Of a stretch of DNA of 64,000 nt, positions 15,397 through 61,266 are shown in pieces (positions within the stretch are counted from its first letter, which is position 1; the number at the start of each line of letters is the position of its first letter). The translations under genes were made by a program, and so were the position numbers. The notes beneath the pieces are model-generated. The model made no database searches. It was not told where the DNA came from and worked only from the letters and a program-made list of their open reading frames with translations. Source of the stretch: Bryum argenteum (lineage: Eukaryota > Streptophyta > Bryopsida > Bryales > Bryaceae); the NCBI GenBank assembly GCA_037043015.1, contig CM073323.1, positions 10,103,758 to 10,167,757 of the forward strand, written 5' to 3'.

Positions 15397-15951
15397 ATGG
15401 ATTTGGTTGATCAACAGCACCAACCTCGCAGGACACTAAAACGTGTGTCCCGAGTCCCGGACTTGCCTACCATCTCTGAACTATGCATCGAGTCTCATCC
15501 GAGGCCCAACATGAAAGCTGCAATTGTAGAGAAACTACAGCGACTGGGAGGCATCCAGTTGACTCTCGCGACAACTGAACGTGGCATGTCAAGCAAATTG
15601 GAGCGGCTCGGACACACTCACTTGCTAAGAGTAGCAAACACAAATGAAACGAGCCCTTCTCTTGTAATTGGAAACACCGATGATGGGAAAAAGCTGGAGA
15701 GGCTGGGTCGAACGAGTTTGCCCAGAGTAGCAAACACGAATGAAACGAGCCCTGCTTTTGTAATTGAAAACACCGATGATGGTAAAAAACTGGAGAGGCT
15801 GGGTCGAACTAGTTTGCCCAGAGTGGCAACGACAACTGAAACTAGCCCTTCGTTTGTAACTGGAAGTACTACTGAGAAGAGAAAATTGAAGAGAATGAAA
15901 GTGGCTCACTTCTCTAGAGCTTCAATCTTGGGCTCAATTGCAACGTACTAA
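15397..15951 (+). CDS. LPTI/LERLG family protein A (184 aa, four repeats)
   Basis: Unrecognised small basic protein and the longest member of the family. It starts MDLVDQQHQPRRTLKR, followed by the family block DLPTISELCIESHPR (~residues 27-41). A degenerate LQRLGG unit precedes four repeats beginning KLERLGHTHLLRVA, KLERLGRTSLPRVA (twice) and KLKRMKVAHFSRAS. Repeat starts at 15595, 15691, 15787 and 15883 are spaced exactly 96 nt (32 codons). Spacers are polar and acidic (NTNETSP, NTDDGK). There is no signal peptide, membrane segment or known domain. The frame is open further upstream, but the first in-frame ATG after the TATA box is at 15397, and paralogs at 25.9 and 52.8 kb start at the same point (MDxNQHQ). 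It is single-exon. Conservation of coding, promoter and 3' sequence among copies argues for a real gene; cellular role unknown. Confidence 0.75.
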   Translation: MDLVDQQHQPRRTLKRVSRVPDLPTISELCIESHPRPNMKAAIVEKLQRLGGIQLTLATTERGMSSKLERLGHTHLLRVANTNETSPSLVIGNTDDGKKLERLGRTSLPRVANTNETSPAFVIENTDDGKKLERLGRTSLPRVATTTETSPSFVTGSTTEKRKLKRMKVAHFSRASILGSIATY

Positions 15952-17875
15952 GATGCTAGAATTCTCATGCACCTGAGATGATGAACTCGAGTTCCATGGG
16001 GGCGGCTGATACTTTAATCTAGAATAGTAATCACAGTCAGGCTAATTGAAAATTTCGAGGCTTTTCAAGCAACTACAAATGCTTGAATTCTCTTGAGAAA
16101 CTTACACTTGAAGTGGATCGGGGAACTAGTATGACATCCAAAAGCTTGTCGAAGATTTGAGACCTCTGAAGCAAAGGCTAATGCTTGAAGAAACTGAGAC
16201 AAACTCGCTAAAGGAAATGAGATGACAAAATCTGATAGTTTAGTCATGTTTGGTAGTCTCAGAATCTCAAATAGATGGCAAAAGGTAGCTTCTTAGTTCA
16301 CACAAGCACATTGCAAAATGGCACCTAAAATATCATATTCAAATTTTTCTTTTTAAGAAAACTTGTCATCATATTTTGAGTTCCAAATTTAGGAAGAAAT
16401 TTTCAATATCACTCTTGATATCATGAATTATATGTTCCTAAACCTTACAAATCATTGTTGTACCATAAAAACCTTAGTTTGTAAATATACCACGGTTGAC
16501 CCGTAAAGTTAATTGAAGTTTCTTGTAAGTACAACTTATTTTGATGAGTGACTTTGGAACTACTTGATGTTCATTAGTCAATCATGATAATAGTTTCAAG
16601 TCTTGTTATCGAATCCAATTTTGTAGAAGGGTTGGTGATATTATTGGATTTGGTTCAAAGCTTTTGAGAATGAAGTTAGTTACTTTGTATTTGTGTGCTC
16701 ATTCTTGGGAAAGTATTGCTTTGATATTTTACTTCATTTGACCATAATTGTGGCAAAGTAATCACGTTCATAATGAACCTAGTCAATTAGTCTTCCATGA
16801 GATCAAAAAATAAAAGTCATATTTTCTCAAATGAGGTACTATGGATTTACTTTCATCAAATAATCAATATTTACGTCTCAGACAAATTCTCAATAGTTTT
16901 TTAGAGCTTCGGACAATTTGAAGGTAAACATAACATTTAGTTCTAATAACAATTTGTTATGTATAACTTCAAAGTTATGATTCATTAATGTAAGGTGAAC
17001 ATGTTTTCTTATTACAAAGTTTCAAAGATTATAACAATAAGCTTAAATATTTGTACATGTACATCAATTTATATTTAAATCCCTTAGAGAATTAATCAAA
17101 CATATGCTTACAAGCAATTAGCATAGACACCAAGAAACACATCTAAGCACACGCTTTGTTTCTACCCATCATGTGACTTACACTCATTACCTAACCCCTA
17201 ACTATCCTTGCAGTCTGATATGGTCTTTTGCCATTTTGGGCAGCCTAGGTTTTTGGATTAGAATTAATATTTTTGACCGAGATATTTACTGGGTGTTGAT
17301 AATACTACAAGGTGTGTGCGCAAAAAATTTGCAAAGTCAAATTCCAGTTTCTGAGTTTTTAATGTTTTTACACCCTAGGCCGACAGAAAAAAACTTCTAT
17401 GTTCCGAGATTTTTTTGAAGTTTTTTTAGAATTTTGTTCATATCTAAATCACTTTTTTGAATTCCAAAGGGTCCTAAGTCAAAAATCTACCAATTCTAAA
17501 CTTTATATGAGAAAGCTTTAAAGTTTATGGAAATTTTAGTAAAAACTTTTGTAAGAACTTTGGATGTTATGATCTTGCAAATGATTAACTTCAATAGTCT
17601 ATTGTTGGACCAATGACTAGAAATAGATTTTTTTTATAAGACCAAATGGTTGGAAAACTTAAAAATAGTTGAGAAACTTGCTTCACACTCTGGAGATTGT
17701 ATAGTGGTAGAAATTGCAGTCTTGAGGTTTGAAGCTCCAAAAACACACAAGAAAATTTAGGAGATAACATCATTGATGTGGAACTCTTATAGTCTTATCT
17801 CTAACCAAGTTTATGATACTATCTTTCAAAGGCAAAATTTCTTAAGAAAGTTCCATTTGGGGGATGAGATGATTG
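15952..17875. other. 3' flank of gene A; arm 1 of inverted duplication
   Basis: The first ~350 nt (around ATCTAGAATAGT and TTTGAGACCTCTGAAG) are recognisably related to the 3' flanks of the other family copies, including inverse matches at 54.3-54.5 kb. At 17191-17205 a CTAACCCCTAACTATC sequence resembles a TTAA MITE end without a clear partner. No gene is seen. Confidence 0.5.
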
Positions 17876-17879
17876 TTAA

Positions 17880-18849: not shown

Positions 18850-18996
18850 TTAATATTCATTCTCAATTTCAAGAATGATAAAGAGATTCCTATACTAATT
18901 TTACTATCATAGGTGATATTGTAAGTTACATTCTAGTTAAGATATTTCAAATGTAATAATTTTAAGTTTAAGATGATTAATACTTATCTCACGTGA

Positions 18997-19946: not shown

Positions 19947-19951
19947 AATCA

Positions 19952-20203
19952 TGAAGAATTATAAGGTCTGATTGACCAAGAGAAGAGATGAATTGCACAA
20001 AAAGCTTACATATCTTTATACTGACTACCGAGACTCTCAATGCTTGCTACCCTTACAAATCTGGATCTACAATCCCAATTTAGAGGATGGAAGTAGCACT
20101 ACTACTGTATGCTCCTTTCGTGATCAGAATAGGAGAAACTGCTGAGTGGCAGGCTGGCAGCTTCGTCAGCTAGGTGCCATCTGGCGAGTTGACTTTTCCA
20201 ACA
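19952..20203 (-). repeat. 3' LTR of the copia element
   Basis: 252 bp, on the downstream side relative to the element's coding strand. It matches the other LTR with about nine substitutions and no visible indel. Confidence 0.95.
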
Positions 20204-20904
20204 CCCTCCCTCGCTTATGTAACCCTAGAGCTGAGGTTTCAGAGCGCATTTTGGATATGGAGCTTCTCCGAGAGTTGTCGGTGATCAATCAGATCGCTTT
20301 GTTAGGCGTTGAGAGACTGAAATGGCAAGTAGTATGATTTAGCTTCTACCTCCTTGAATACTTGTTGTGGAAGATCAAGAGGTTTGCCGATGGTGCCTTG
20401 CTATGGTTTATTCATTCTTCCTTGAGCAGTCAAAGTACCCTAGGGAGGATACAGACAGAGGTTGCTACACCGAGTTGCCCACTGGGACAATTGATTTCGC
20501 CTTTGCCTGATGAAGTAGTTGAGAGTTGCATATGGCCGAAGACAATTGAGTCTCCTTTAGTGTTACAGCTGCTTGTGCTCCGGAGCTTGAATTCTCCATG
20601 GAGACGTTTCATTGAGCGATCGCTACAGTGGAAGGTGCTTACTTTCTTGTGGACGCCTGATATCGGATTGAAGGGATACCTGTTCAGGAACAGATGTAGG
20701 GAAGGCATGACTCCTGATGAGCGATTAGCCTATGAGATGAGAATTTATGAGCTTTTGATGCCCATGGGAAAGAAAGAGACTGAAGGTATGGGAGAAGAGC
20801 AGATTAGGGATTGGTACATAGAAAAGGAATCCTATCCACCTCTCATATTGGATAGTGAATTGTACTACTACCAGCGCCTCAGTGATCAGTACGCCAGTGT
20901 CTGA
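20146..20904 (+). pseudogene. Antisense reading frame inside the copia 3' region, one stop
   Basis: The ~675 bp between the RNase H end and the 3' LTR carry a plus-strand frame, opposite to the element's genes. It is open from 20146 to 20904 with a single in-frame stop at 20335-20337. The second part alone is 180 codons and contains SPWRRFIERSLQWKVLTFLW and TPDERLAYEMRIYELL. I do not recognise it. It could be captured host sequence or an antisense ORF of the element. It overlaps the RNase H frame by ~25 nt. Confidence 0.4.
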
Positions 20905-21613
20905 GGTCCATAATCTCAATAAACTGCTTAATTTCAAAATTGCTTCTGTCTATATGTGGTTCTGTGGGCACTAGTCCCAGTTGGTTACGAATTCTGATGA
21001 AGCTAGTTTTCCCTAGCGCCTTAGTCAGAATATCCGCCAATTGATTAGCAGTTGGTACATATTCTAATTTGATTTCTCCTGAAGCTATTTTCTCTCTGAC
21101 AAAGTGGTGGCGTACTTCAATGTGTTTAGTACGACCGTGGAATACCGGATTGTGGGAGAGATTTAGACTTCCCTGATCATCACCAACAATCGTTGTTGGT
21201 TGTTGTAGACTTTGCATTCGAATTTCTCCAAGCAACCTCCTTAACCAAGTGGCTTCTTTCGCACCTTCTGTTAACGCCATGTACTCACTTTCTGTAAATG
21301 AGAGAGCAACAGTCGGCTGCTTACGAATGTTCCAGGTGATTGGAGTAGTTCTAAGTAAGAAGACAAATCCAGTAGTGGATTTTCGATCATAGGTATTTGA
21401 GGCCCAGTCTGCATCAGTGTAACCAAGTAACGTGCTAATCTCCCCCTGGCGGTACAGAAGTGCAAGGTCAATAGTTCCTTGCAAGTAACGGTAGATGTGT
21501 TTAACTGCATGTAGATGCGGAGTTTGGGGTTTGGCCATAAATCTGCTCACCATGCTTACTGCAAAACAGATGTCTGGGCGAGTGTGGGTGAGAAAGATGA
21601 GTTTCCCCACCAT
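20879..21613 (-). pseudogene. Copia RNase H domain (same frame as RT, after a stop)
   Basis: Contains VGKLIFLTHTRPDICFAVS, TDADWASNTYDRKSTTGFV and SLTESEYMAL-like FTESEYMALTEGAKEATWLR, the usual copia RNase H landmarks, and ends with the ADILTKAL motif. It is in the same frame as the integrase/RT frame and separated from it by one TAG at 21625-21623. It is the last part of the element's polyprotein and is broken here. Confidence 0.9.
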
Positions 21614-21622
21614 CCGTTGGTA

Positions 21623-24079
21623 CTAATGGCAATCAACTACTGGAGCTTCCATGTTTGGAATCAACTTCAGCTTCTCGGTCATTGGAGTAGACACAGGTTT
21701 GCTCTCAGCTAATCCAAATTCTTCCAATAACTGTCTGATGTATTGCCTTTGAGTAACCAGTATGCCTTGTGGTTGGAATAAAAATTCCAAGCCCAAACTG
21801 TATGAAAGAAGGCCTAAGTCATACATGTCAAATTCCTGCTGGATGTCTGCACGGATGAGAGCTATGCGATCTGTGTCATTCCCGGTGAGATACACATCAT
21901 CTACATAGAGAAGCAAAAGAGTGATTTTGCCATTGGTTTCGTGAAAGTAAAGATTGAAGTCTGCCTGAGATTTCTCCAGTCCTTGACTGAGAAGGTAGGT
22001 GTCCATTCTTGTGTACCAGGCTTGCGGGGCTTGCTTTAGCCCATAAAGCGCCTTTTTCAACTTACACACAAGAGAGGACAAAGAAGAAGAGAATCCAGGT
22101 GGTTGGGAAACATAGATGTCCTCATGAATGTCACTATTAAGGAAAGCGGTTTTGACATCAAGATGAATTATAGGCCACCTATTGTGCCCGGCTAGAGCAA
22201 CAACGCTACGGAGGGCATTCCATTTTACAACACGTGCGAAAGTTTCAAAATAGTCATGATCTGGCTTTTGTTGAAATCCTCTGGCAACAAGTCGAGCCTT
22301 GAGCTTGGCAGGTGATCCATCTGCATTTGTCTTAACTCGAAACACCCACTTTGTGGATAATGCTTTTCGATCATGTGGCAGGGAGACAATCTCCCAAGTG
22401 CCATTTTTATAGATTGATGAAATTTCATCCTCCATCGCATGTTTCCAACCAGGATGCATCATGGCAGCTTCAACTGAGGAGGGAAGACAGATGGAAGACA
22501 CCACATTCACCGCACCGTGCTCACCAAGGGACTCTGTGAGATGAAGGTGAAAGTCTTCGAGTCTTGCAGGAGTTTTTAAGAGACGGCCGGTGCGGGAAGT
22601 ATGCAGGAACGGATTAGGAGCAGGTGAGTCCGAATTTGCAACTGATTGTGATAAACTTGCACTGGAGCCTGAGGTGAAGGCTCGAGTTGAAGGTGCACGG
22701 CGCTGATAGACATGTAAGGGAAGTTGAGCCTTGGCGGATACATCAGGTTGCAGTTGAATAGCCACCTCAAAATTGCTTGTTGGGGAAGTAGACAGAACAG
22801 TTGCTTTGACCAAACCTGTATTTGGGCTTTGAGAGAGTGATGCCGGTTGATGTGGAAGTGGCAGTGGTGAGCTAATAGTCTCACTGGGAGTCCCACAGTT
22901 GTCCCCAACATGGTCACCAGCATGTTCAAATTTGAAGTGTGTCGGCTGTGGAGTCTTTTGACTCAGTCTAGTGCCAGCTAAACAGCTAGAAGAAAGATCA
23001 GGAGTGAAACCGGCATCTCCACCAGTTTCCGGCATGGTCACTGAATCGGTGCTTGGACCTGTGTAGTAATGGGAAGCCTGAGAGTTAGAATCAGATGGGT
23101 TGGAGACCTTTGAAGTACTGGGAGTGCTTTGAGAGGACACTGGAAGAAGTAACTGCCAGTCAGAGACAGGAAATGAATCGGAACTGAGAGTGGGATTGAG
23201 TAAAAAAAGAAAAGACTGTTCGTCAAACTGTACGTCTTTTGGAACAAAAATCCTCCGGCTGGCCTTGTGGAAGTTTCGAAATCCCTTCGAAGTAGAGTCG
23301 TACCAAATAAAAATGCACTCCTTAGAGCGAAAATCCCATTTCTTCAATGCTGGAGAAGTGTCAAGCACAAAGCTTTTGCACCCAAAGCTTTTGAGGTAAG
23401 AAACAGAGGGCACTCGTCCATACAACTTCTCGTAAGGTGTAATACCTGCGTTTGCTCTTGTTGACGTTCTGTTCGTGATGTAGTTTGAAGTAGCTACAGC
23501 TTCCGTCCATAAGTAGGCCGGAATGCCACTTGAGAATGCCATACATCGAGCTTTGCTTAAAAGAGTTCGATTCTTCCTTTCCGCCACCCCATTTTGGTGG
23601 GGTGTATAGGTTTGAGTCAGTTGACGTTGAATCCTTGAATCATTGCAGAAGTTTATGAAATTGTTGGAAACATACTCCCCACCATTATCTGATCGAATGG
23701 CCTTGACGCAATGAAAGCTTTGGAGCTCAACCATCATCTTGAATTTTTGAAACTTGACAAGAGTTTCTGATTTGCGTTTTAGGAAATAAATCCAACAGTA
23801 CCGACTAAAGTCATCGGTAAAGGTCAAGATGTACCTTGATCCTGAAAGTGAGTTTGTTGCCATTGGCCCACAGATGTCGCCATGGATAAGTTCCATGGGC
23901 AGTTTGAATCGAGTGGCGCTACTATAGAGATCTTGAGTTCCTGATGGACGAAGAGGTTGTGTTCGAGGCTTGACAGAGCGGGACTGCTTTCCTTGTGAAC
24001 AGGCAGAGCAAAAGGTACTCATCAACGGCAGTGAAGGTAAGCCTTTGACTATTCCCTTGGTAGCCATGAAGGTCATCAC
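21623..24079 (-). pseudogene. Copia integrase and reverse transcriptase
   Basis: The start carries a Cys-containing pre-integrase remnant (FCSACSQGKQ), then the integrase core with the acidic positions in HGDICGPM, SDNGGEYVSNNF and HQNGVAERKNRTLL. The reverse transcriptase follows, from WKHAMEDEISSIYKNGTWEI, with HLDVKTAFLNSDIHEDIY and the catalytic YVDD box (LLLLYVDDVYLTG). The frame ends at a stop near 21623. It lies in a different frame from the protease piece upstream, so a frameshift separates them. Confidence 0.95.
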
Positions 24080-24227
24080 TCTGGTGCCAAAGTCAAATGA
24101 CAGAGTCTTGTCAGGAGCTTTCGATGCTGTTAATGTTCATAAATGTAGACTGAAACCTGTAGAGACCATTTCTCTGATCACGAGTGCCCATAGATATGAT
24201 CTGGTGAGCTGCAGGTAGAGGAGCATC

Positions 24228-24790
24228 TTAAAGAATCCAGCAGTGTTTAGAATCGAAGAGAATTTTGGGTTTCCCTTTTTCATCTGCTATAGAACCTACT
24301 GAAAGCAAGTTTTTCGAAATGCCAGGGACGTAGAGAACATCAGATAATTGTATTTCACCCGAGGAAGTATAAACATCCACTTTGCCTCTTCCAGCGACGC
24401 TGAGGACATCCCCTCCAACAATGCTTATTTTTGATCGTCTGCTATCTTCTAGCTCACTAAAAATGTGCCGTTTACCAGTCACATGTTTGGATGCGCCATT
24501 GTCCAGGTACCAATTGCTGGAGTTTCTATTTTCGGCCAAATTAATTTCGGAGATGTTAACGGCCATTTCCGTCTCCGTTTCGGTGAAGACGTCTTCGTCG
24601 CTGCTTTCTATGATCTTGAAGTTATCCACCAGATTCACAGACACTGTGGAAGATGCCTTTTCGAGCCACTTTGATTTCCGAACCTTGAGTTCGGCTGAGA
24701 GCGATGGACAGTTACGGACCCAATGCTCCTTGGATCCGCAATAGTAACAGAAGCTTGATTCGCTCTTCTTCGCTTTTTGACGAGCGTCAT
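24228..24790 (-). pseudogene. Copia gag zinc knuckle and protease
   Basis: The frame enters with a CX2CX4HX4C zinc knuckle (CYYCGSKEHWVRNC, ~24751-24710), then the aspartic protease with DNGASKHVTG and the VLYVPGISKNLLSVG block of the pre-integrase region. It is out of frame with both the main gag part upstream and the integrase downstream. Confidence 0.9.
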
Positions 24791-24795
24791 CGGAG

Positions 24796-25467
24796 CTAGC
24801 TGGAGCTTGATCTGCGCCCTCCAGTATTCTTCCTCCCCTTCACGAGCAGTACCTCATGAGTGCTCCGTTTGTCTCTGAGCTCCCTGCGAGTTCCATCCTG
24901 CAGGAGAATAACGGTTAGATTTGCTAATGTTGGAGACTGTGACTGGTACGAGATGGAGTTTACGAGTCTCTCGTAGCTCGACGGTAAGGCCATCAGCACA
25001 TACTCCACTATTTCTGGATCTTTGATAGTTTCGCCTATGCAGGCGAATTCGTTCATTAACTCCTTGACTTGTTGTAGAAAAACAGAGATCGAAGATCCCT
25101 CCTCCATTTGCAGGTTCGCCAGCTTTCTTCGAAGTAGAAGCTTCCTAGAGTGGTTGCCGCTAGCGTACAGATCCTTTAGTACCTGCCAACACTTATCGCG
25201 TTCCTTGATGTTAGCAATATACGGGATGACATTGTCTTTCACAGACAATGCTGTCATGGTTAGTGCTCTATTTTTCAAAACTTGCAGAGCATCAATGTCA
25301 CCTGCAGCAGTAGGAGCTACAGTACCCGCATGTGGGTTCACTATCCGCCAAAGGTCATCTCTGTTCATCATATTTTGCAATTTGAAGCTCCAAACTGAAT
25401 AGTTTGGGATGCCTTCAAGTTTGCTTGCTTCACTGATGGAAGAGTCCTTTGAGGCCATTTCTACCAC
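24796..25467 (-). pseudogene. Copia gag (UBN2-type), 223 aa
   Basis: Starts MVEMASKDSSISEASKLEG, followed by NYSVWSFKLQNMM and later LYASGNHSRKLLLRRKLANL, the usual plant copia gag pattern, with the coat-protein-like region to the end. It begins ~105 nt downstream of the primer-binding site. The frame closes before the zinc knuckle, which lies in another frame. Confidence 0.9.
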
Positions 25468-25570
25468 ACCTAGCTGATCTACAACTACTTGTCAATAGGT
25501 AGCTCTGTTTCTTACTTAGAGATGCACAAGGGAAAACTCTCAAGCATAGACTAATAGCTACCCGTGGCCT

Positions 25571-25582
25571 GCTCTGATACCA
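25571..25582 (-). other. Primer-binding site of the copia element
   Basis: TGGTATCAGAGC directly abuts the 5' LTR. It is complementary to the 3' end of initiator tRNA-Met, the classic primer for plant copia elements. Confidence 0.9.
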
Positions 25583-25834
25583 TGAAGAATCATACGGTCT
25601 GATTGACCAAGAGAAGAGATGAATTGCACAAAAAGCTTACAGATCTTTATACTGACTACCAAGACTCTCAATGCTTGCTACCCTTACAGATCTGGATCTA
25701 CAATCCCAATTTAGAGGATGGAAGTAGCACTACTACTGTATGCTCCTTTCGTGATCAGAATAGGAGAAACTACTGAGTGGCAGGTTGGCAGCTTCGTCAG
25801 CTAGGTGCCACCTGGCGAGTTGACTTGTCCAACA
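25583..25834 (-). repeat. 5' LTR of the copia element
   Basis: 252 bp. It drives the element's minus-strand transcription and ends next to the target duplication 25835-25839. Its outer edge lies only 56 bp from the ATG of the family gene that follows. Confidence 0.95.
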
Positions 25835-25890
25835 AATCAATCACTAATACTTGCATAATTTGGTATATTACACTCAGCTAAGATACAGAA

Positions 25891-26304
25891 ATGGATTCAA
25901 ACCAACACCAAACTAGGAGACATCGGACTGCGGACTTGCCTACCATTTCGAAGCTTTGCATGGAGTTCCATTCTATGCGCAATTCTATTGCAAACAAACT
26001 GGGTGGGGGCATTTCATTGCCCTCGACAACAAATGAAAATGGCTTGGTTCCAAAACTGGAGCAACTAGGACATACTCATTTGCTCAGAGTAGCAACTGCA
26101 ACTAAAACGGACCATTCTCTGCTTGTGACTACTGGAAGTAGTGACAACAGAAAACTAGAGAGACTGGGACAGACTCGTCTACCGAGATTTGCAACTACAA
26201 CTAGACATGAGGCTTCACATGCGAATGGATCTAAATTGGAGAGGATGGGACAAACACAGTTCTCTAGTGTTGCAGTTATAAGTGCACTAATTGCAAAGTA
26301 CTAG
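25891..26304 (+). CDS. LPTI/LERLG family protein B (137 aa)
   Basis: Second family member: MDSNQHQTRRHRTADLPTIS start, the block KLCMEFHS, then KLEQLGHTHLLRVA, KLERLGQTRLPRFA and KLERMGQTQFSSVA, and a C-terminus ending IAKY. It is an intact single-exon frame, closest to the 52.8-kb copy (same start, same repeat number, same end). Its leader and promoter are interrupted by the copia element, so normal expression is doubtful unless the LTR or a cryptic site provides a start. Function unknown. Confidence 0.7.
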   Translation: MDSNQHQTRRHRTADLPTISKLCMEFHSMRNSIANKLGGGISLPSTTNENGLVPKLEQLGHTHLLRVATATKTDHSLLVTTGSSDNRKLERLGQTRLPRFATTTRHEASHANGSKLERMGQTQFSSVAVISALIAKY

Positions 26305-26881
26305 GATGGGTACATGCAAGTATATGAGACGCATAATTCGAATTGCATGGGGCTGATATATACCCAAATCTAGGAAAATGCATTTCTGTACAGCTAAGCT
26401 AGTTGATAACTTCAAACTTTGGAAGCGAATGCAAATGCTTGAACTCTCTTGAGGAAGTTCGCTCCATCTGAAATCTGTGAAGAATTGGGAGCTTTAATCA
26501 TTTTGAATTGCCCATTGAGACTTTGGAACCAAATGTATGCAACTGCTCGAAGTAACTCACATTAAAAGTCGATGAAGGAACTGAGATGGCAATATCTAGA
26601 TAATTAGTCCTATTTGAAGGCTCAGATTCTCAAGTAGATAGATTGAGATGGCAAGAGGTGTCGCACATGTCAAAATGTCACCTAAGACATGTATTTGTGA
26701 AATTGCACACTGAATCATGTTGAGAGCGGAGTTAAATTTCTAGTTCCATTTCGGACAAGGCTGATATATTATTCCCTTCCAGACCATCGCTAGTTGCCAT
26801 TTCTGTTTATCTGGTGCAATTGGCTTTGAGTTCATCATGAATATGGTGCAACTACCTATCAAGGGTGCGTTCCTTTGAACA

Positions 26882-27091
26882 GAAAAACCTATGCATGAAC
26901 AAGGATTCATTTGACTTCCTCATTTAGCTACTTTAGGATGGGGAGTAGGTCCTAGTGGGGAAGTTATAGATTCTTTTTTGTACTTTGTATCTGGCGTACT
27001 TCATTTAATTTCTTCCACTGTTTTAGGTTTCGGAGGAATTTATTATGCACTTAATGGGCCAAAAACTCTAGAAGAATCTTTTCTTTTTTCT
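26882..27091 (+). pseudogene. psbC: Plastid psbC fragment (nuclear copy)
   Basis: Reads EKPMHEQGFI, a stop, then [20 protein letters not shown] and [20 protein letters not shown], matching the C-terminal part of the photosystem II CP43 protein. One internal stop and several substitutions show it is a decayed nuclear insertion. It ends abruptly at the junction with psaB sequence. Confidence 0.9.
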
Positions 27092-27095
27092 TGAA

Positions 27096-27205
27096 GGATT
27101 TCATCCACAAACACAAAGTTTATGGTTGACTGATATGGCTCACCATCATTTAGCTATTGCAGTTCTTTTTACTATAGCTGGTCACATGTATAGAACTAAT
27201 TTTGG
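27096..27205 (+). pseudogene. psaB: Plastid psaB fragment (nuclear copy)
   Basis: Reads [20 protein letters not shown] and [10 protein letters not shown], an internal piece of photosystem I protein PsaB. It is bounded by psbC sequence on one side and ndhK on the other; these are not neighbours in moss plastid genomes as I know them. Confidence 0.9.
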
Positions 27206-27530
27206 TACTGTAACAATGAGAATGGCACCATCTTTGGTAAGTTTGTATGAGCAAACGCCCTAACCTAAGTATGTAATTGCTATGGGAGCATGTACTATTA
27301 CTGGAGGTATGTTTGGTACAGATTCTTATAGCATTCTACGTGGAGTAGATCAATTAATTCCTGTAGATATTTATTTACCTGATTGTCCAGCAAAACCAGA
27401 AACCATTATAGTTGCTATAATAAAACTTCTTAAAAAGGTAGCTTGAGAAACATACGGAGATAAATATAAATTCAATCAAGGAGAAAGACATTTAACATTA
27501 AATCAAAATCTAATTTTATATCGACTATTA
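27206..27530 (+). pseudogene. ndhK: Plastid ndhK fragment (nuclear copy)
   Basis: Reads [19 protein letters not shown], a stop, then [19 protein letters not shown] and [20 protein letters not shown], matching plastid NAD(P)H dehydrogenase subunit K to near its C-terminus. Two or more stops are present. The join to psaB falls at a shared GGT, suggesting end-joining with microhomology. Confidence 0.9.
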
Positions 27531-27552
27531 CTGCTGGACAATTTAATACCAA

Positions 27553-27893
27553 CTAAAGTCTCAGATTCCTAAGTCTCAGTTCGAATCAACTTTAAATTTC
27601 TTTGCGTCATCTGAGAGAGAGAGAGAGAAAAAAAAAAAAAAAAAAAAAAAAAAACGATTTTTTTATGAAATCAAGTTTGTATTTAATATATATGTTTTAC
27701 CAAATATTACTTCTTAATTAGTAAAAATATTAAATTACAAAAATTATTCATATAATAAAAAAGGTTATAAATACTTTTATTTTTGTATCATTAATACAAT
27801 TAATTAAAGTATAATTTAAATTTCTATAAAAAAATTGTGATAAAATTAGTGAAATCTACTACTATAAAAAAAGCATTGAAGAAACTCACGTAA
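27553..27893. repeat. AT-rich repeat copy 1, with GA/poly-A tract
   Basis: From CTAAGTCTCAGTTCGAATCA to GCATTGAAGAAACTCAC, closely matching 28758-29118. A GA run and a long A run lie at 27609-27653. No coding potential. The shared ends suggest a small mobile or frequently copied sequence. Confidence 0.65.
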
Positions 27894-27915
27894 GTGCGTT
27901 CTTCTGAACAAAATT

Positions 27916-28404
27916 ACCCCAAACCATGTTTCCAATGTGAGACTCAAATCATGGTTACAATTAGAACACGGGCTACATTGAAATTAGGATATACCAAATA
28001 TGGTTCCATTGAATCCATATTCATCTTGTCTTCTGCTCACTTTGGAATCGACTGAAAAACAAATGTCGGCAAGTTCATGATCCAAGGTCTCGAAAGCTTT
28101 TGCTTTAATCATCAATGGTTCTTTATATCAAGCCTTGGTGGTTAATTGGGAAAGATCCTCGGAAGAAAGTTGTGAAACAAGTGTCAATAGTGTTCATAGC
28201 CTCTCATCACATAAACGGGATAGAGCTTTCCCTTGCAATCACTTCAACTCATCCATGTTCAATCTTCTGCAGCTTTTCAACCATCTCCTACCTTCGATCG
28301 TTCTTTTCATAACTTGATGCCATCTCTCTCTTGAATGTTCATAAACTCTTATTTGGAAAGAGAGTGGTCCGTTGCACATTCCAATCAGTACTACAATCGC
28401 AGCA
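27916..28404 (+). promoter_or_regulatory. Upstream region of family copy C
   Basis: Matches 51.36-51.75 kb in inverse orientation base for base over long stretches (for example CCCCAAACCATGTTTCCAAT and GGTTAATTGGGAAAGATCCT). The core promoter reads CATCACATAAACGGGATAGAG followed by CTTTCCCTTGCAA, resembling the TATATAAACGAGAG and CTTTTCCTTGCAA of the 61-kb copy. Confidence 0.5.
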
Positions 28405-28590
28405 ATGGACGGGATGTCACAAGAATGTGAGCGCTGGACACCGGAGCTACCAACCATTCGCGAGGATTGGGTCGAACTGCATTCCAAACACGTTTACAGC
28501 CATGGATTGGACATGTCGATTGCAGCGTTAGTGAGAAAGAATCGGGAGCGATTGGAATGCATGCAATGGCCCCTGGTACCGTCGTGCTAG
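28405..28590 (+). pseudogene. LPTI/LERLG family copy C, truncated by deletion (61 aa)
   Basis: Starts MDGMSQECERWTPELPTIRE and keeps the N-terminal block and the VRKNRERLECMQ helix-like segment. Compared with the copies at 29.3 and 51.3 kb it lacks ~100 bp covering the TSES and LERMG part, then hits a stop after VPSC. A shortened protein could still be made; otherwise a decaying duplicate. Confidence 0.55.
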
Positions 28591-28757
28591 AATAAAGGGA
28601 TTGATCATGGTAGAGAACTGAAGAAGCGACTTGGACGAGTGCTTTGATTGACTTGAACGATTGCTAGGCCAAGTGCACCTGATTCCAATCTCTAAATTCC
28701 ATGTAATATGTTACGGTATGCTTGAAACCTTAGAAGAAATGTTGTTGAAAATTTCTA

Positions 28758-29118
28758 AGTCTCAATTTGAATCAACTTTATAAATTTTTGCTTCATCTAA
28801 AAAAAGAAAAAAATCAACTTTTTTATTAAAAATTGAAGATAAAAAAACACAAAAATTAAATTAAAAACAATAAACAAATTTTTTATTAAATCAAGTTTGT
28901 ATTTAATATATTTGATTCATCAAATAATTACTTTTTAAATAGTAAAAATTTTAATTACTAAAAACTTTATATAATAAAATACAAATATAATTAAATTAAT
29001 TTGCTCATGATTAATATAATTAATTAAATTTTAACTGAAATTTTTATTTAAAAAAAGAAGTAAAATTGTGATAAAATTAGTAAAATCTACTACTATAAAA
29101 GAAGCATTGAAGAAACTC
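28758..29118. repeat. AT-rich repeat copy 2
   Basis: Same ends as 27553-27893 and ~70-80 % similar inside by eye. It is followed by a segment (29119-29240) that matches the 3' flank of gene B (26563-26700), so this interval is part of a local tandem rearrangement. Confidence 0.6.
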
Positions 29119-29326
29119 ACATTCAAAGTCGATAGTGGAACTGAGATGGCAATATATAAATAATTGGTCCTGTTTGTAGGCTCAGATTCTCAAATAGATA
29201 TTATTCAATGGCAAATGACACCTAAGGTATTATGCAAAGTTGGAGTTTTGATGTTTCATAAACTCTTTTTTGGAAATACAGTGGTGTGGTCCGTTGCACA
29301 TTCCAATCAGTGCTACAATTGCAGCA

Positions 29327-29647
29327 ATGTACGGGATGTTGCAGGCACGAGAGCGCTGGAGACCTGAGCTACCGACCATTCGCGAGGATTGGGTCGAACT
29401 ACATCCCAGACACGCTTACAGTTATGCATTGCGCACATCGATTGCAGCGTTAGTGAGAAAGAATGGGGAGCGATTGGAATGCATGCAATCGCCCCTGGTA
29501 CCGACAAGTGAGTCCGAGTGTGATTCTGGCGCGATGCGGCTTCAGCAAGATGGTAGAAGACTGGAGCGGATGGGACAATCTCGTCTACCTCGAGCAGCAA
29601 CAACTGACGATATCCCGTCGTGCAAGAGAAGGGATCGATCATGGTAG
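29327..29647 (+). CDS. LPTI/LERLG family protein D (106 aa)
   Basis: Starts MYGMLQARERW, then ELPTIREDWVELHPRHAYS, a basic segment IAALVRKNGERLECMQSPL, a TSESE linker, and one repeat RRLERMGQSRLPRAATT. An earlier in-frame codon is only TTG, and the paralogs place the ATG at this same point. Compared with the 51.3-kb copy, a 1-nt indel changes the last ~30 residues (CKRRDRSW, stop, here). It lies tail to tail with the carboxypeptidase gene. Unknown function. Confidence 0.65.
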   Translation: MYGMLQARERWRPELPTIREDWVELHPRHAYSYALRTSIAALVRKNGERLECMQSPLVPTSESECDSGAMRLQQDGRRLERMGQSRLPRAATTDDIPSCKRRDRSW

Positions 29648-30495
29648 AAAACTGAAGAAGAGATTTGGACGATTGCTTTTCTGTGATCATGAGAAACGAG
29701 GTGACCGGTGTCGTGACGATTCCTAGGCCAACTGGACCGGATTCCAATTTTTGAATTCCATGTAACTTGTTACGGTATGCTTGAAAGCTTTAAAGAAATG
29801 ATCCCTGCTGTTGAAAAGTCAACGTATTGAAAGTGCGTACAGTTCTTTGGGGGATTACCCCTATTTCGAGTCTCAAAATTAAGTATTCAGAACGAAACAA
29901 TTACCAACCAAAGCATATGTTGTGCTAGTTGTTTGGAACAAATCAATTTCCAAAATAAGTAATGTTGTTCTGTCCTTGTTACTTGGAACTAAGCAATCAT
30001 CAAACAAATCATGTGCTGTCCTTGTTACTTAAATCGAAGCACTTATTTATACCGCAAGTCATGTTGGTACTTAAATCAAAGCACTTATCGAAACCGCAAG
30101 TTATGTTATCCATGTTACTCGGAGCAAAGCAAGTATTAAAATCACATTATCAATTACGTTCTTATGTGCATCACGAAGCTAGTTATAAGTAGGAACTCAA
30201 GAGTGACTTCGTTTCACATTCTAAAAGATTATTTTACAGCACTCTCATAAAAAGCAAACGATAGTTTCAGAATACTAGATGAATGAAGCGTATCTCCACT
30301 CCACAAGCCTCTCATGCACAAATGGAATCAAAAGTAATCTGGGTCCCTTGAATTTCTGTGAAGTCGATACAATTGATAGGGCTCCGACGATACCATGCTA
30401 CTCCATATGCATGCTGAGTATTTCTTAAATACAAGGAGACTGAATACAGCTGAACACACTTACAGAAATGTACATCTGGAGTGGGAAGGAATAAT
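29648..30495. other. Convergent 3' flanks of gene D and the SCPL gene
   Basis: Contains short tandem-like motifs with GCACTTAT and AAGCAAGT. The whole stretch has an inverse counterpart at 50.2-50.85 kb. No gene. Confidence 0.5.
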
Positions 30496-33599
<3,104 letters not shown>

Positions 33600-39199: not shown

Positions 39200-39203
39200 T
39201 TAA

Positions 39204-41198: not shown

Positions 41199-41202
41199 TT
41201 AA

Positions 41203-41563
41203 CCCTTAAAGGCGCCTGTCAGCCCCTCGGGCTGTTTTCCAACAGAATATTGCATGTAGCTATTTTTATTCTGAAATTTTCACTTATTTTTTTATATCAT
41301 TCTGGTCACCTTTTTGTGATGCATCTACAAAGTGAAATCCTACAATTCAATTTGCAATTTGTATGAGTGATTTGTGCTTTGAAAGGATTGTGGTAGGTAG
41401 GTTGGGATTACACAAAACCTTGTAGGAGGTTGCAAACTCATCATTGATTGGTTCATTTATGTTGCCCAAGTTCAAAAAGTGCACTATTCATGTTGCCCAA
41501 GTCCAAAAAATGTTGAGATACAATTTCAGGCTGCTTATTGAGGAGTGGTAGGACCTTTAAGGG
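41203..41563. mobile_element. TTAA-flanked MITE, copy 4 (361 bp)
   Basis: TTAA (41199-41202) then CCCTTAAAGGCGCC; right end AGGACCTTTAAGGG then TTAA (41564-41567). The interior matches the next element and the 38.8-kb copy in opposite orientation. It shares its right TTAA with the neighbouring copy. Confidence 0.85.
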
Positions 41564-41567
41564 TTAA

Positions 41568-41926
41568 AGGTCCTTGGGGTCTGAAACGGGCAGCCCAAAA
41601 TTGGATCACATCATCTTTTGGACTTGGGCATCATAAATTGTGCACTTTTAAAACTTGGGCATCATGAATGGACCAATCAATGATGAGTTTGCAACCTCCT
41701 ACAAGGTTATGTACAACCCCAACCTACCTACCACAATCCTTTCATTTGAACCACAAAATCACTCATACAAATTGTGATTTGAATTGTAAAATTTCACTTC
41801 TTGAATGCATCATAAGAAGGTAGCCAATTTGACATCAAAGTATACGTGAAAAGTTAAGTACAATGAGAGCTACTAGGCATATTTTGTTGGAAAAAAGCCC
41901 CTCTTGCTTACAAGGACCTTTAAGGG
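41568..41926. mobile_element. TTAA-flanked MITE, copy 5, inverted next to copy 4
   Basis: Begins AGGTCCTTGG directly after the shared TTAA, lacking the usual CCCTTAA start. Ends CAAGGACCTTTAAGGG followed by TTAA (41927-41930). Interior blocks match copy 4 as reverse complement, making a ~700-bp imperfect palindrome. Confidence 0.75.
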
Positions 41927-41935
41927 TTAATTGTG

Positions 41936-46722: not shown

Positions 46723-46725
46723 TTA

Positions 46726-47870: not shown

Positions 47871-47874
47871 TTAA

Positions 47875-48133: not shown

Positions 48134-48137
48134 TTAA

Positions 48138-49017: not shown

Positions 49018-50192
49018 CTTAAAGCTTCGGCTGCGAACGACTTATCATACTGCAAATACTGTAAGCTGGTGAATTCAAACTCTCTTCGGAGTACACTTTT
49101 TCAGTTAGTGATTTCTGAGGGTGTGTTTTGTTTGTGGTTGCAGGGTACCATCAACATCTACGACAGATATGTAGAAATCTGTGTGGCTGTATCTGCTCAA
49201 TTTCAGACACGCTATTTCGCTTAAGCAGGTGAAGCAGAAGCTTTTGTTTACTGATTGAGCTTAGCTTCAATTGCAAAAAGATTTTCAATTGTGCAGCTAT
49301 GGCGTACTCGACATGGTGGCCTGTCCACTCGACCTTTGTTGAAGGAGGAAAAAACGTTGCATGCCAACACCACGAACCTACCTTTGGCTGTGGACTAATT
49401 GCAGGTTTGATTTAATGTTATTTCCGGTAGTTTCATCAGGAGATTCCTAGTTTGAATCAGCAGCTATTCCGTTCATTGGATACGTACATCTGCTATGCCG
49501 TAGTATGGTTTAACAGAAAAGCCTAGAATACTTATGAACCTACCAGATTTAATACTTTTTCGTAGTATGGATGCACTTAGTAGTAGTATCTATCGGTTTC
49601 ACAGTCTTAGTACTCATCATGTTGTCGTTTTCTTCTTCTGCAGCGACGTCCTGGCCTGTTCGAGGATCTATTGTCGAGCGTGCTTCCTCTCTACCCCACT
49701 TTGTTACACTCCGGCATCAAAATTCTCATATTCAGGTACTGCAATCCAGCCCTTCCGTAGGTAACTGTTATGCTGTTTGCTTTCTGTCATCAAGTATTCT
49801 GACGACGTTTTATCATTATATACAGTGGCGACATCGATGCCATCGTACCTGTGACTGGAACCCGTGCATGGCTGAGCTTGTTGCCATTGAACATCACCGA
49901 GCCCTGGAGGCCGTGGACTATCGATAATCAGGTACATATCCTTCATCGATTAGCCATTCAGAAAGTACGCAACTTCATCAGGTACACATAGTTTCTACTT
50001 CAGTGTGCCATAATTGACGAGATTACTGATTATTTGAATGCGTGTGTGGATGTTCAGGTGGGAGGGTACGTGACGGTGTACGACAAACTGACGTTCACAA
50101 CGGTGCGAGGCGCGGGCCACATGGTGCCCTACACTCAGCCCGCCCGTGCTCTTCACTTGTTCGAGTCTTTCATTTACAACAAGCCCTTCTAG
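49018..50192 (+). pseudogene. Serine carboxypeptidase-like pseudogene (exons 8-14)
   Basis: Inverse, partial duplicate of the 30.5-33.6-kb gene. Exon 8 is a decayed remnant (49018-49063, CTTAAAGCTTCGGC). Exon 9 (49144-49228) has a premature TAA. Exons 10 and 11 are fused by a deletion (GTTGAAGGAGGA joined to AAAACGTTGCATGC). Exon 12 has changes at its start. Exons 13 and 14, with the DIDAIVP and GAGHMVPY sites, are nearly identical to the parent and end in TAG. Exons 1-7, with the catalytic serine, are absent. Intron sequences are conserved too, so this was copied as DNA. Confidence 0.92.
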
Positions 50193-50885
50193 ATCATTCA
50201 GGCCTTCCCACTCCAGATGTACATTTTTCTGTAAGTGTGTTCAGCTGTATTCAGTCTCCTTGTATTTAAGAAATACTCAGCATGCATATGGAGTAGCATG
50301 GTATCGTCGGAGCCTATCATTGTATCCACTTCACAGAAATTCAAGAGGCCCAGATTACTTTTGATTCCATTTGTGCATGAGAGGCTTGTGGAGTGGAGAT
50401 ACGCTTCATTCATCTCGTATTCTGAAACTATCGTTTGCTTTTTATAAGAGTTTTGTAAAATTAATCTTTTAGAATGTGAAACGAAGTCACTCTTGAGTTC
50501 CAGCCTACTTGTAACTACTTCGTGATGCACATAAGCACGTACTTGAAATGCGATTTTGATACTTGCTTTGCTCAGAGTAACATGGATAACATAACTTGCG
50601 GTTTAGATAAGTGCTTTGTGTCAAGTAACAAGGACAGAACATCATAACTTATTTAGGAAGTTAATTTGTTCCAAGCAACAAGCGCAACATATGCTTTGAT
50701 TGATAAATGCTTCGTTCTCAATACTTAATTTCGAGACTCCAAAAAGGGGCAATCACTCAAAGGACTGTACCCACTTTAAATATGTTCACTTGACTTTTCG
50801 ACAACAGGGTTAATTTCTTTGAAGGTTCCAAGCAAACCTGAACAGGTTACATGGAATTCAGAAATTGGAATCAGGTCCAGTTGGC
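50193..50885. other. Arm 2: counterpart of 29.65-30.5 kb
   Basis: Inverse match to the convergent 3' flanks in arm 1. No gene. Confidence 0.6.
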
Positions 50886-51278
50886 CTAGCGATAGTCACA
50901 ACAATCATCACCTCGTTTCTCATGATCACACAAAAGCATTCGTCCAAGTCGGTTCTTCACTTTTCTACCATGACCGATCCCTCCACTCTGGCACGAGGGG
51001 ATATCGTCAGTTGTTGCTGCTCGAGGTAGACGAGATTGTCCCACCCGCTGCAATTTTCGATTATCTTGCGGAAGCGGCGTCACGCTAGAATCACACTCAG
51101 ACTCACTTGTCGATATCAGGGGCGATTGCTTGCATTCCAGTCGCTCCCGGTTCTTTCTCACTAACGCTGCAATGGATGTGGCCAATCCATGGCTGTAAGC
51201 GTGCCTAGGATGCAGCTCGACCCAGTCCTCGCGAACGGTCGGTAGCTCCGGTCTCCACCGGTCACGTTCCTGCAGCAT
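50886..51278 (-). CDS. LPTI/LERLG family protein E (130 aa)
   Basis: Starts MLQERDRWRPELPTVREDW, then VELHPRHAYSHGLATSIAAL, RKNRERLECKQSPL, a TSESE linker and the repeat RKLQRVGQSRLPRAATT. It extends to DHEKRGDDCCDYR, where the 29.3-kb copy is frameshifted to an earlier stop. The upstream in-frame codon is TTG, so the conserved ATG is used. It is the arm-2 counterpart of copies C and D. Unknown function. Confidence 0.65.
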   Translation of the reverse strand: MLQERDRWRPELPTVREDWVELHPRHAYSHGLATSIAALVRKNRERLECKQSPLISTSESECDSSVTPLPQDNRKLQRVGQSRLPRAATTDDIPSCQSGGIGHGRKVKNRLGRMLLCDHEKRGDDCCDYR

Positions 51279-52386
51279 CCTTTCCAATGATGCGATCGTA
51301 GCACTGATTGGAATGTGCAACGGACCACCCTCTTTCCAAAAAAGAGCCGATGCACATTCAAGAGAGAGATGGCATCAAGTTCTGGAAAGAACGATCGAAG
51401 CTAGGAGATAGTTAAAAAGCTGCAGGAGAGTGAGCATGGAATAGTTGAAGTGATTGCAAGGGAAAGCTCTGTCCTGTTTATGTGATGAGAGGCTGTGGAG
51501 ACCGTCGAGGCTTGTTTCACAACTTACTTCCGAGGATCTTTCCCAATTAACCACCAAGGCTAAAGAACTGTGGATGATTCAAGCAAGGACCCATCCAAGC
51601 TTTCATGAACTTGCGGACATTTGCATTTTCTGTCGATTCCAAAGACAAGATGAATTTGGATTCAATGAACCATATTTTATATATTCTGATTTCAATATAG
51701 CCCTCTAACGATTGTTACCCTGATTTGAATCTCACATTGGAAACATGGTTTGGGGTTATTTTCTTCAAGAGCACGCACCCTTGATAGTTAGTTGCACCAT
51801 ATTCATAAATTCAAAGCCAATTGCACCATATGAAAAGAAATGGCAGCTAGCGATGGTCTAGAAGGGAATAATATATCAGCCTTGTCCGAAATGGCACTGA
51901 AAATAACTCCACTCACAGCATGATTCAGTGTGCAACTTCACAAATACAGAGCTCGACAGTAATCACTCCATGGATGAATGGTTTTTATTTTCTGTATGCA
52001 CCGTGATTTGGGAGGAGTCTCAGAAATATGTGATAAATAGCTGCGTTTGTTTTGTCTAAAAACATGATGTGAATAAAAACACTGACAGAAGTCTGGTGTT
52101 GGAGCTACTCTTTTCAGACTTGTGCTGATGCAAAGAAATGCTAATGTTTGTTTGTAGCAATGTCAAAGCTATTGTTCGGTGCATGAAGTTGTGAAAAAGA
52201 TGGTGATCAGATCGACTTGGTAATTATGATTGAATGTTGACTTTTATGAATTTTTGAGGTAAAGAATGTACAATAAGTTTGAAGTTAACAACTGGCTTGG
52301 CTGTAATTTTTCTAGATTAGGATAACTATCATCCCCATGAAATTCAAATTCTCATTCATGTACGTGCATGTGAGATTTGTAGCATC
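51279..52386. other. Arm 2: promoter of E, empty insert site, 3' flank of F
   Basis: 51360-51750 matches the promoter region of copy C. Near 51750-51790 is the uninterrupted counterpart of the plastid-DNA insertion site. 51800-52386 matches the 3' flank of gene B. No further gene. Confidence 0.6.
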
Positions 52387-52788
52387 CTAGTACGTTGCAG
52401 TTAATGCACTTATAATTGCAACTCTAGAGAAATGAGTTCGTCCCATCCTCTCCAATTTTGGATTCTCATCAGATCCATGGTTCACATGTGAAGCCGCCTG
52501 AGGTGTAGTTGCGAATCTAGGCAAATGAGTCTGTCCAAGTCTCTCGAGTTTTCTGTTGTCAAGACTTCCGGTAGTCAGAAGCAGAGAATGGTCCGTTGTA
52601 CTTGCGGTTGCTACTCTGAGCAAATGAGTATGTCCGAGTCGCTCCAGTTTTGGAAGCAAGCCATTTTCAGTTGTTGTCGAAGGCAATAGAATGCCCCCAC
52701 CCATGGAATGAAAGTCCATGCAAAGCTCCGAAATGGTAGGCAAGTCCAGAGTCCGATGTCTCCTGGCTTGGTGTTGGTTTGGATCCAT
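52387..52788 (-). CDS. LPTI/LERLG family protein F (133 aa)
   Basis: Starts MDPNQHQARRHRTLDLPTIS, then ELCMDFHS, followed by KLERLGHTHLLRVA, KLERLGQTHLPRFA and KLERMGRTHFSRVA, ending LTATY. Intact, single exon, with an uninterrupted leader (158 nt to the TATA box). It is the arm-2 counterpart of gene B and shows what B's promoter looked like before the copia insertion. Unknown function. Confidence 0.72.
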   Translation of the reverse strand: MDPNQHQARRHRTLDLPTISELCMDFHSMGGGILLPSTTTENGLLPKLERLGHTHLLRVATASTTDHSLLLTTGSLDNRKLERLGQTHLPRFATTPQAASHVNHGSDENPKLERMGRTHFSRVAIISALTATY

Positions 52789-52945
52789 TGATTCTGTAAC
52801 TTAGTAACTTCTGTTGTGAATGCAAGTACTAGTGATTGATTTTGATGGTTTAATGGGTAGCAATGAAACAAGTGTCGGTACATGGAGCGCATAGGTATGT
52901 TGGAATGAAAGAGTTGAAATGAGCTAGATAGGATTGCGAGGCTCT

Positions 52946-54656: not shown

Positions 54657-55109
54657 TTATAGTAAGTACGTTGCAATTGATGCACTTATAATTGCAACTC
54701 TAGAGAAATGAGTTTGTCCCATTCTCTCCAGCTTTCGATGCTAAGAATTCCTAGTCACAAGAGAAGTGTTAGTGGTGGTTGCTGCAAGTCGAGGCAAACA
54801 AGTTTGTCCGAGTCTCTCTAGTTTTTTGTTGTCAGTATTTCCTGTTCCAAGACAACCGTGGTCACTTCTATTTGGCATGGATGATACTCTTAGCAGATGA
54901 GTATGTCCCAGCCCCAATTTTGGAGGCAAGCCAATATCACTAGTTGCAGTAGTTGTAAAGTTGTAAGCAATGATCGGATCGAAGCGTCGTTGGAAGCAGA
55001 TATTAGATATTTTTGTAACGGTGTATTTTTGTAGGCAGAATCGGGTTGAGGTGTCGTTGTAAGCCGATATTCTGGTAAAGTTGTGAGCAATGTTTTGATT
55101 GTAGATCAA
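54657..55109 (-). pseudogene. LPTI/LERLG family copy G, broken
   Basis: Retains KLGLGHTHLLRVS (one codon lost from the motif), KKLERLGQTCLPRLAATT, then a TAG at 54743-54741, followed in the same frame by RKLERMGQTHFSRVA and IATY. The N-terminal LPTI block is replaced by unrelated sequence. It is a decayed member, most like F downstream of its N-terminus. Confidence 0.75.
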
Positions 55110-58350: not shown

Positions 58351-58494
58351 ACTAAGTAACACAGTTGTAGAAGATGATGCTCAACATGATCAAGAGAACA
58401 CATGACACAACACAATATTTTGTAATATGCAGCTGGCATTTACGTCGGACTTCATCTCGTCTCCTTGTTTCAAACACTGGCTCTCTCTCTCCCA

Positions 58495-59829: not shown

Positions 59830-60240
59830 TGTTTTTGTCAAACGGTACGGAATGTAAGATTTAATTATATGTACAAATGAGGTGTTAATTCTTACTTTTA
59901 TAATCTTGAAAGATTTGTCATGGACCTGGAAAGTTCACGATACGTTGAGATAATTTATGAAATTTAGGTCTAGAAAAGTCTTTAGGGGTCACATTTTTTT
60001 TTTTGTCACATTGTTAAAAGTGAAAAATTGTAACTCATCATAGGTAAACAAGTAGCAGCAACTGAAGGAGGTCTACTACCATAATATCGTTGAAGATATT
60101 GCAAAATCCAATTCAATCAAAAGCACAAGGCAATAGGTTTCAATATGTAATTTTAATGTTGAGGATAAAACCTGAGTTTATTATAATGCTCCCGCCGTGT
60201 ATACCTACCTAGTCGCTCGCAAGAACTCCAACCCATAGAA
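59830..60240. repeat. Dispersed repeat, copy of 8860-9240
   Basis: Same block order as the 8.9-kb copy. A degenerate third unit follows at 60290-60460 (TTTAGGTGCTAAAT, CTTTTATGATACT, AATTTAGGTCTGG). Confidence 0.65.
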
Positions 60241-60834
60241 GTAGATAATTAGATGAGAAGTAGGACATCACATGCACTCACCTTCTTCCATTTGAATGTA
60301 GAATGTAGAATTTGGTTTACATGATCACTTTAGGTGCTAAATCCTTCTTTTATGATACTAAAGATATTCATGGAACAAGAAAAGTTTACATCACATAAAA
60401 CATAGAATTTAGGTCTGGTAACTATAGAATACATAACACCAAACAATATAAACATTTATTACTATGAATAATAAGTGGATGACATTGACACCAAGTCATG
60501 CCAACAAATCGAATCATTGGAACATAACTAAGTTATCTTAGCACCAAGTCTTGATGAACAACTTTCCAATTTTAAATTTTAGTTTTTCCATAATTTTAAA
60601 TTTCTATCTCAAATTCCATTTCCTTACTAACACTAATATATCTCTTTTTCAAAAGATCACAATGTCAAAAATCTACTATAATTCTTAATAGATAGTGTTA
60701 GGATTTACATTTAGTGTTTCTACAAAAATAGGTTTATATGATATTTAGAGTGATGTTTGCAAATACAGTGCCTCTCACTAAATACACTATTTAGTGCACC
60801 TTCTTTGCTTGCTCACCCTCAAGCAAAAAAGAAT
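60241..60834. other. AT-rich intergenic, nothing further
   Basis: 3' flank of the next gene and repeat remnants. Confidence 0.35.
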
Positions 60835-61266
60835 TCATCCCAGTTTTCCAGCACGCGGGCGAGCCCATACGAATTGTCGTGATGAGCCCACACGAATTCG
60901 TCGAAATCGCTCCAGCCCTCTACCACATGTGGCTCCAGTTGAAGGAAGTGGAATCGTTGTTGCTGCTGCTCGGGGCAATTGAATGCATCCGAGTAGCTCT
61001 ACTTTTCTGGGTGGCGAGCAAGACTCACTTGTTGGTGGGGGCGATTGAAGAATTCCCAGTCGCTCCATGTTCTTTACAATGTAAGCTTCCGTGCATCCGT
61101 AGGTGTGCCTGGGATGGAATACGACGGCTTCTTCGGGTATAGTCGGCAGGTTTGGGGTCCAGGACCTCTTGAAGACCTTGTGCTGCGTCAACTCCATTGC
61201 CGCTGAAGCAACTCTGGTATGGAATGCATGAACGAAGCTAGAAGATTTGACTGTCGAAAAGCACAT
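60835..61266 (-). CDS. LPTI/LERLG family protein H, diverged (143 aa)
   Basis: Contains NLPTIPEEAVVFHPRHTYG, IVKNMERLGILQSPPPTSES and VELLGCIQLPRAAATT, aligning over the whole length with copies D and E, then a novel C-terminus rich in Arg (CGRGLERFRRIRVGSSRQ). The first ATG downstream of the TATA box is at 61266; the ATG that aligns with the paralogs' start is at 61197 (MELTQHKVFK), and either may be used. Most divergent intact member, outside the duplication arms. Function unknown. Confidence 0.65.
   Translation of the reverse strand: MCFSTVKSSSFVHAFHTRVASAAMELTQHKVFKRSWTPNLPTIPEEAVVFHPRHTYGCTEAYIVKNMERLGILQSPPPTSESCSPPRKVELLGCIQLPRAAATTIPLPSTGATCGRGLERFRRIRVGSSRQFVWARPRAGKLG

Follow-up and report, generated by a model that had tools for sequence, protein, structure and literature searches.

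The window studied here is a 64,000-nt stretch of the Bryum argenteum genome (C3:10103758-10167757, contig CM073323.1; the genome comprises 258.8 Mb in 25 contigs), which carries eight homologous copies, intact or broken, of a family of small genes, labelled A to H. The family has multiplied and decayed locally, and the coding sequences of copies A, B and F have evolved under constraint. We tentatively regard it, at a little under an even chance, as a real, fast-evolving and apparently lineage-restricted family of small proteins that has spread on C3 by local tandem and inverted duplication and decay, and whose products would act as multivalent linear-motif proteins. The lineage restriction is only apparent, as the searches for relatives covered this genome together with prokaryote and viral contigs. 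No earlier description of the family was found in the literature outside subscription journals, nor any for the letters KLERLG.

Copies in the window and their coding constraint

An earlier note, made from the sequence alone, had placed eight single-exon copies in the window. All eight loci and their translations were confirmed, the genes look single-exon, and the copies are as follows.

15397..15951, plus strand: copy A, 184 amino acids (aa), intact, with a TATA-like element at ~15221-15227 and tandem 96-bp (32-aa) repeats
25891..26304, plus strand: copy B, 137 aa, open frame, separated from its promoter by a Copia element
28405..28590, plus strand: copy C, truncated; promoter and N-terminal half kept, repeat region gone
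29327..29647, plus strand: copy D, a copied segment that starts 72 bp before the ATG and is without the ancestral promoter; its last part runs on in another frame (29631-29717) and matches the last part of E
50886..51278, minus strand: copy E, 130 aa, intact, with a TATA-like element near 51482-51477
52387..52788, minus strand: copy F, 133 aa, intact, with TATATAA at ~52953-52947
54657..55109, minus strand: copy G, broken, with an unrelated N-terminus, no LPTI block and a stop before the last repeat
60835..61197, minus strand: copy H, 119-120 aa from its probable start, with TATATAAA at ~61316-61309

The one boundary that changed is the start of H, previously set at 61266. It is more likely to lie at 61197 (MELTQHK), because two relics beyond the window, I and X2, carry stop codons above the matching start.

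Genome-wide protein searches were made with four queries (F, E and two members outside the window, K and J), and the resulting counts are lower bounds. Query F recovered B (E 1.8e-52), G (4.1e-23) and A (2.5e-22), and query E recovered D (5.9e-47), C (2.0e-21) and H (8.7e-7). The link between the two groups is weaker (E-F 0.002 genome-wide); within the 183.5-kb stretch examined for the flanks (C3:10064000-10247499), the matches were ~2e-6 to 5e-6 for A-H and ~5e-7 to 1.5e-6 for A-E. On these sequence matches the eight copies are homologous and not alike by chance. The N-terminal LPTI block was recovered, as claimed, in seven of the eight copies in the form LPT[IV] (E has LPTV and G is without it). 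The KLERLG motif had also been credited to seven copies, but the strict form KLERLGxTxLPRxA is found in only four (A, B, F and G), with looser KLERLG-type forms in D, E and H and none in C.

A division into two subfamilies was only partly upheld. In a protein tree of A, B, D, E, F, H, J and K, with C and G set aside, the groupings (A,(B,F)) and (D,E) were supported, but the placement of H, J and K was not, so that H does not clearly belong with D and E as had been proposed. The idea that the copies have promoters in common fared similarly: those of A, B and F align and C, E and H carry a TATA-like element, but D has none in its copied stretch and that of B sits beyond the Copia element. Within the window, an open frame and a TATA-like element are both kept only in A, E, F and H.

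The coding evidence is good for A, B and F and weaker for D, E, H and K. Pairwise tests on DNA alignments gave an omega (dN/dS) in the true frame of 0.49 for A-F (twice the log-likelihood difference, 2dlnL, 8.5) and 0.42 for A-B (2dlnL 12.7), two tests which are not independent of one another. Neither alignment has a stop in the true frame, compared with 2-13 stop-bearing triplets in the other frames. All indels are multiples of three in A-F (6/6), A-B (7/7) and B-F (4/4), compared with 5/22 in four flanking alignments. For K-J the omega was 0.34 (2dlnL 9.6) over 56 codons, with 20 further codons out of phase. A joint codon model of eight members, for which the alignment was built on protein and kappa scanned over seven values, gave an omega of ~0.54 (2dlnL 28.5 against omega 1); values of ~0.60 (2dlnL 14.1) and ~0.45 (2dlnL 15.6) were obtained for the five promoter-bearing or outlying members and for A, B and F respectively. 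In the codon and omega tests D was used without its frame-shifted tail. The earlier note had named a dN/dS near 1 in all pairs, combined with a lack of transcripts and peptides, as an outcome that would speak against the family; A-B, A-F and K-J lie below 1, although several other pairs are indistinguishable from it.

Duplication, decay and the CHS/PAL neighbourhood

The proposed ongoing duplication and decay of copies is supported. The features that bear on it, with coordinates past the end of the window given in window numbering, are listed below.

19952..25834: Copia long terminal repeat (LTR) element in the 5' leader of B, with LTRs ~96% alike
25878..31753: inverted duplication, left arm, carrying B, C/D and a serine carboxypeptidase 3' end
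49061..52804: inverted duplication, right arm, carrying E, F and, at 49812-50177, a 3' fragment of the carboxypeptidase gene
62303..63499, minus strand: CHS1, a chalcone synthase (CHS) gene, which opens a tandem array with four such genes and four for phenylalanine ammonia-lyase (PAL), reaching ~97,000
67852-67995: X2, broken (E 0.002)
79213-79341: X1, broken (E 0.01)
~87.5 kb: X3, weak relic (E 0.025)
97350-97726: I, broken
98533-98823: J, open frame
104786-105115: K, intact, 110 aa

Every family copy in the left arm (B, C and D) is damaged. The Copia element lies 56 bp before the start codon of B between 5-bp target-site copies, AATCA, at 19947-19951 and 25835-25839, and the empty site is found in F. 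B evolves faster than F, at 0.33 compared with 0.13 substitutions per codon, and its branch on the protein is 0.22 compared with 0.045. The likeness between the arms is uneven: one part (30064-31023 and 49658-50631) agrees at 93% over 978 bp, rising to 98-100% in places, and the neighbouring parts are 82-87% alike, for which patchy gene conversion and constraint are alternative explanations. Also inside the left arm, 26915-27569 resembles, by eye and across frame breaks, chloroplast photosystem and NADH-dehydrogenase proteins, and is probably organelle DNA in the nucleus.

As a family size, eight copies is an undercount, as the 42 kb beyond the window hold five further copies or relics, along with a weaker sixth candidate, X3. 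Elsewhere in the genome, convincing members were found by the four queries only on C7 near 8.72 Mb. A DNA search and local comparison covering ~4.6 kb there revealed a promoter and leader that run straight into the 3' flank, without the coding sequence in between, and the same region also holds a stop-ridden repeat fragment; judged by their sequence, these C7 copies are dead. Weak genome-wide matches on C1, C2 and distant parts of C3 (E 0.03-2.4) had no supporting DNA match and were rejected as family members.

The array that begins at CHS1 consists of flavonoid-pathway genes and alternates four CHS genes (62.3, 69.6, 80.7 and 91.3 kb) with four PAL genes (65.4, 76.9, 84.5 and 94.9 kb), and their proteins are at least 99.5% identical for the four CHS and 98-100% for the four PAL. 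Copy H stands ahead of the array and X2, X1 and X3 occupy its three PAL-to-CHS spacers, with I, J and K located beyond the last PAL. Matches at the DNA level between the intervals of H, X1, X2, X3 and I support their common descent. Family copies or relics are placed around all four CHS/PAL units, yet they are dead in all three spacers. A second array, with seven CHS and seven PAL genes, is present at C7:7139764-7235034. The four protein searches detected no family member within this second array, and when 30 kb around it were scanned with a profile lacking the first residue of H, nothing scored better than E 3, so the adjacency of the family to CHS/PAL may be hitchhiking.

Neighbouring PAL and/or CHS genes have 18 reported occurrences in Marchantia (PMC7010833, available text). 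The tandem, interleaved arrangement of the bryophyte arrays is likewise seen here, as 4+4 on C3 and 7+7 on C7. Unlike the Marchantia arrays as that text describes them, the C3 array, and only this one, has a small-protein family interleaved with it, and no such partner was found reported there. The layout of the C7 array is inverted, with CHS on the minus strand in its left part and on the plus strand in its right part. Other CHS groups occur on C2 (five) and C4 (three), without PAL matches beside them. The CHS gene of the window has one uninterrupted open frame, and the C7 CHS copies examined are split after codon 66.

Other large genes in the window encode a PPR protein and, on the minus strand at ~30.5-33.5 kb, the serine carboxypeptidase, in addition to the Copia element and chalcone synthase already described. 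An Rfam scan of the window gave nothing at gathering scores and a tRNA scan with bacterial settings gave no tRNA. A dispersed palindromic repeat occurs at 38865-39203 and 41199-41930, with other copies near -24,900, 90,200 and 101,400 in window coordinates. Past the window, at 112807-126033, there is a block of tandem repeats with ~80-bp periodicity in two inverted copies, set inside a larger inverted duplication that is ~94% alike over 3.8 kb.

Protein properties and competing explanations

The eight proteins examined, those of the tree, are 97-184 aa long, with isoelectric points of 8.8-10.9, a grand average of hydropathy of -0.39 to -0.96, a net charge of +2.4 to +11 at pH 7 and 11-22% K/R; with the signal peptide of secreted repeat-peptide precursors in mind, the N-termini of the window copies were judged by eye and are charged or polar. 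The absence of a known domain, as claimed previously, was borne out by a Pfam scan of the members in the tree (again without C and G), in which the best E was 0.19 and all matches fell below the curated cut-offs. Searches of PDB gave nothing at E<=1 with a seven-copy profile and no significant match with K (best 0.082).

We infer that these small, basic proteins are expressed and largely disordered, and that they act as multivalent linear-motif proteins. The N-terminal block, in its fuller form [KR]xxW-x-P-x-L-[PV]-T-I, would dock one partner, and the repeat K-L-E-R-L-G-x-x-x-L-P-R-x-A-T, present from once to three or more times, would bind a second partner or present sites to it. Candidate partners are suggested by members K (KRVSW) and J (RVSW), both outside the window, which keep a core resembling the RVxF-type docking motif for phosphatase-1, given as K/R-K/R-V/I-x-F/W in the available text of PMC12109034. 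Plant phosphatase-1 interactors with RVxF (Inhibitor-2, TdRL1/RSS1) are small disordered regulators, and the likeness to them would lie in this character and in the form of the motif in K and J, with no relation shown over the sequence as a whole; the window copies examined differ from them in having no RVxF. Remnants of the RVSW core persist in these copies, as A keeps RVS without the W, and C, D, E and H keep the W without the V. This loss or alteration of the core suggests that the docking partner changed after duplication. A more specific history is improbable. In it, multivalent adaptors would have begun as phosphatase-1 regulators within a CHS/PAL array, and duplication would have been followed by loss of their docking core and by the acquisition of KLERLG-LPR repeats in varying number, so that a single locus in one genome would display a motif-based regulator in the course of changing partners.

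A number of results weigh against the reading as a functional family of motif proteins. In the coding tests, the mirror-image frame on the minus strand gave an omega nearly as low in A-F, A-B and K-J, and in the tests of the recent pairs non-coding frames ranged from 0.39 to 5.9, two of them with p<=0.01, with flanking controls scattering widely. On DNA alignments, omega was 0.64-0.93 for E-K, E-H, H-K and D-K, no different from 1, and only 11 of the 22 indels in these pairs are multiples of three. The recent pairs were not clearly below 1 either (B-F 0.59, p 0.13; D-E 0.54, p 0.077); with protein-guided alignment the p values were 0.085 and 0.028 respectively. Codon usage, trained on three neighbouring genes, gave no support, placing the true frame anywhere from 2nd to 6th among the six in each of eight copies. 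As regards the motifs, RVxF is absent from all six of the window copies A, B, D, E, F and H and from the translation of C, and its occurrence by chance is not negligible, as shuffling gave P 0.0086 for the strict form in K, whose loose count of two is a single site counted twice, and P 0.008 for the two loose sites of J. The LxRxx[ST] pattern that recurs in the repeats, which we take to be a kinase-like site, showed no enrichment over shuffles (P 0.39 for K and 0.10 for J).

The strongest rival is terminal decay, in which once-coding genes are now mostly relics that hitchhike on the duplication of CHS/PAL and carboxypeptidase, and no copy matters today. We consider this rather unlikely, though several observations favour it: the copies C, G, I, X1, X2 and X3 and those on C7 are broken, B and D are impaired, the CHS and PAL proteins of the array are near-identical while the relics in its spacers are dead, no member was found in the C7 array, and codon usage gives no signal. 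It does not readily account for the deep split of A from F and B, across which constraint is frame-specific and every indel keeps the frame, or for the retention of TATA-like elements by A, E, F and H. Furthermore, neutral simulations from four starting sequences gave an open frame a survival probability of 0.005-0.019 per lineage at 0.53-0.55 substitutions per site, and A, E, F, H and K are open at that depth. The broader pattern resembles that of lineage-restricted (orphan) gene families with birth-and-death evolution, which likewise show local duplicates, fast change, no recognised domain and many broken copies.

That the small proteins regulate or scaffold the phenylpropanoid enzymes PAL and CHS, so that the clustering reflects their role, is suggested by the copies and relics at both outer ends of the C3 array and in each of its spacers. 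This partnership is weakened because the spacer copies are dead, beside intact CHS and PAL, and the sevenfold C7 array is without members found; A-G also lie outside the C3 array. In addition, neighbouring PAL and/or CHS genes are already known from Marchantia (PMC7010833, available text), so that no such partner is required to explain the array, and we think the role doubtful. Binding of a basic repeat protein to nucleic acid or membrane would fit the positive charge and K/R content of all eight proteins, but intact F has a net charge of only +2.4 and the Pfam scans found no known binding domain, which leaves this explanation with a slim chance. A transposon-encoded or viral protein is brought to mind by the Copia element beside copy B. 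However, this element inserted into an existing leader, as seen from its target-site copy and the empty site in F; the copies cluster locally and are not scattered in high number; no match to a transposon protein, the finding that the earlier note thought would undo its proposal, was obtained; and no relative of F was confirmed in prokaryote or viral contigs. On Pfam, the genome-wide searches, the Copia insertion site and the contig searches together we reject such an origin, to which we give almost no weight.

Meaning of the copy series

If the genes are expressed, they would represent an unnamed plant protein family caught amid birth and decay, in which intact, promoter-less, transposon-split, truncated and coding-sequence-less copies stand side by side. 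The family is also a caution that a gene lying inside a metabolic array is not necessarily a functional partner of the genes beside it. Given expression, the copies would form a natural series in which to test how partners are won and lost by short-motif proteins.

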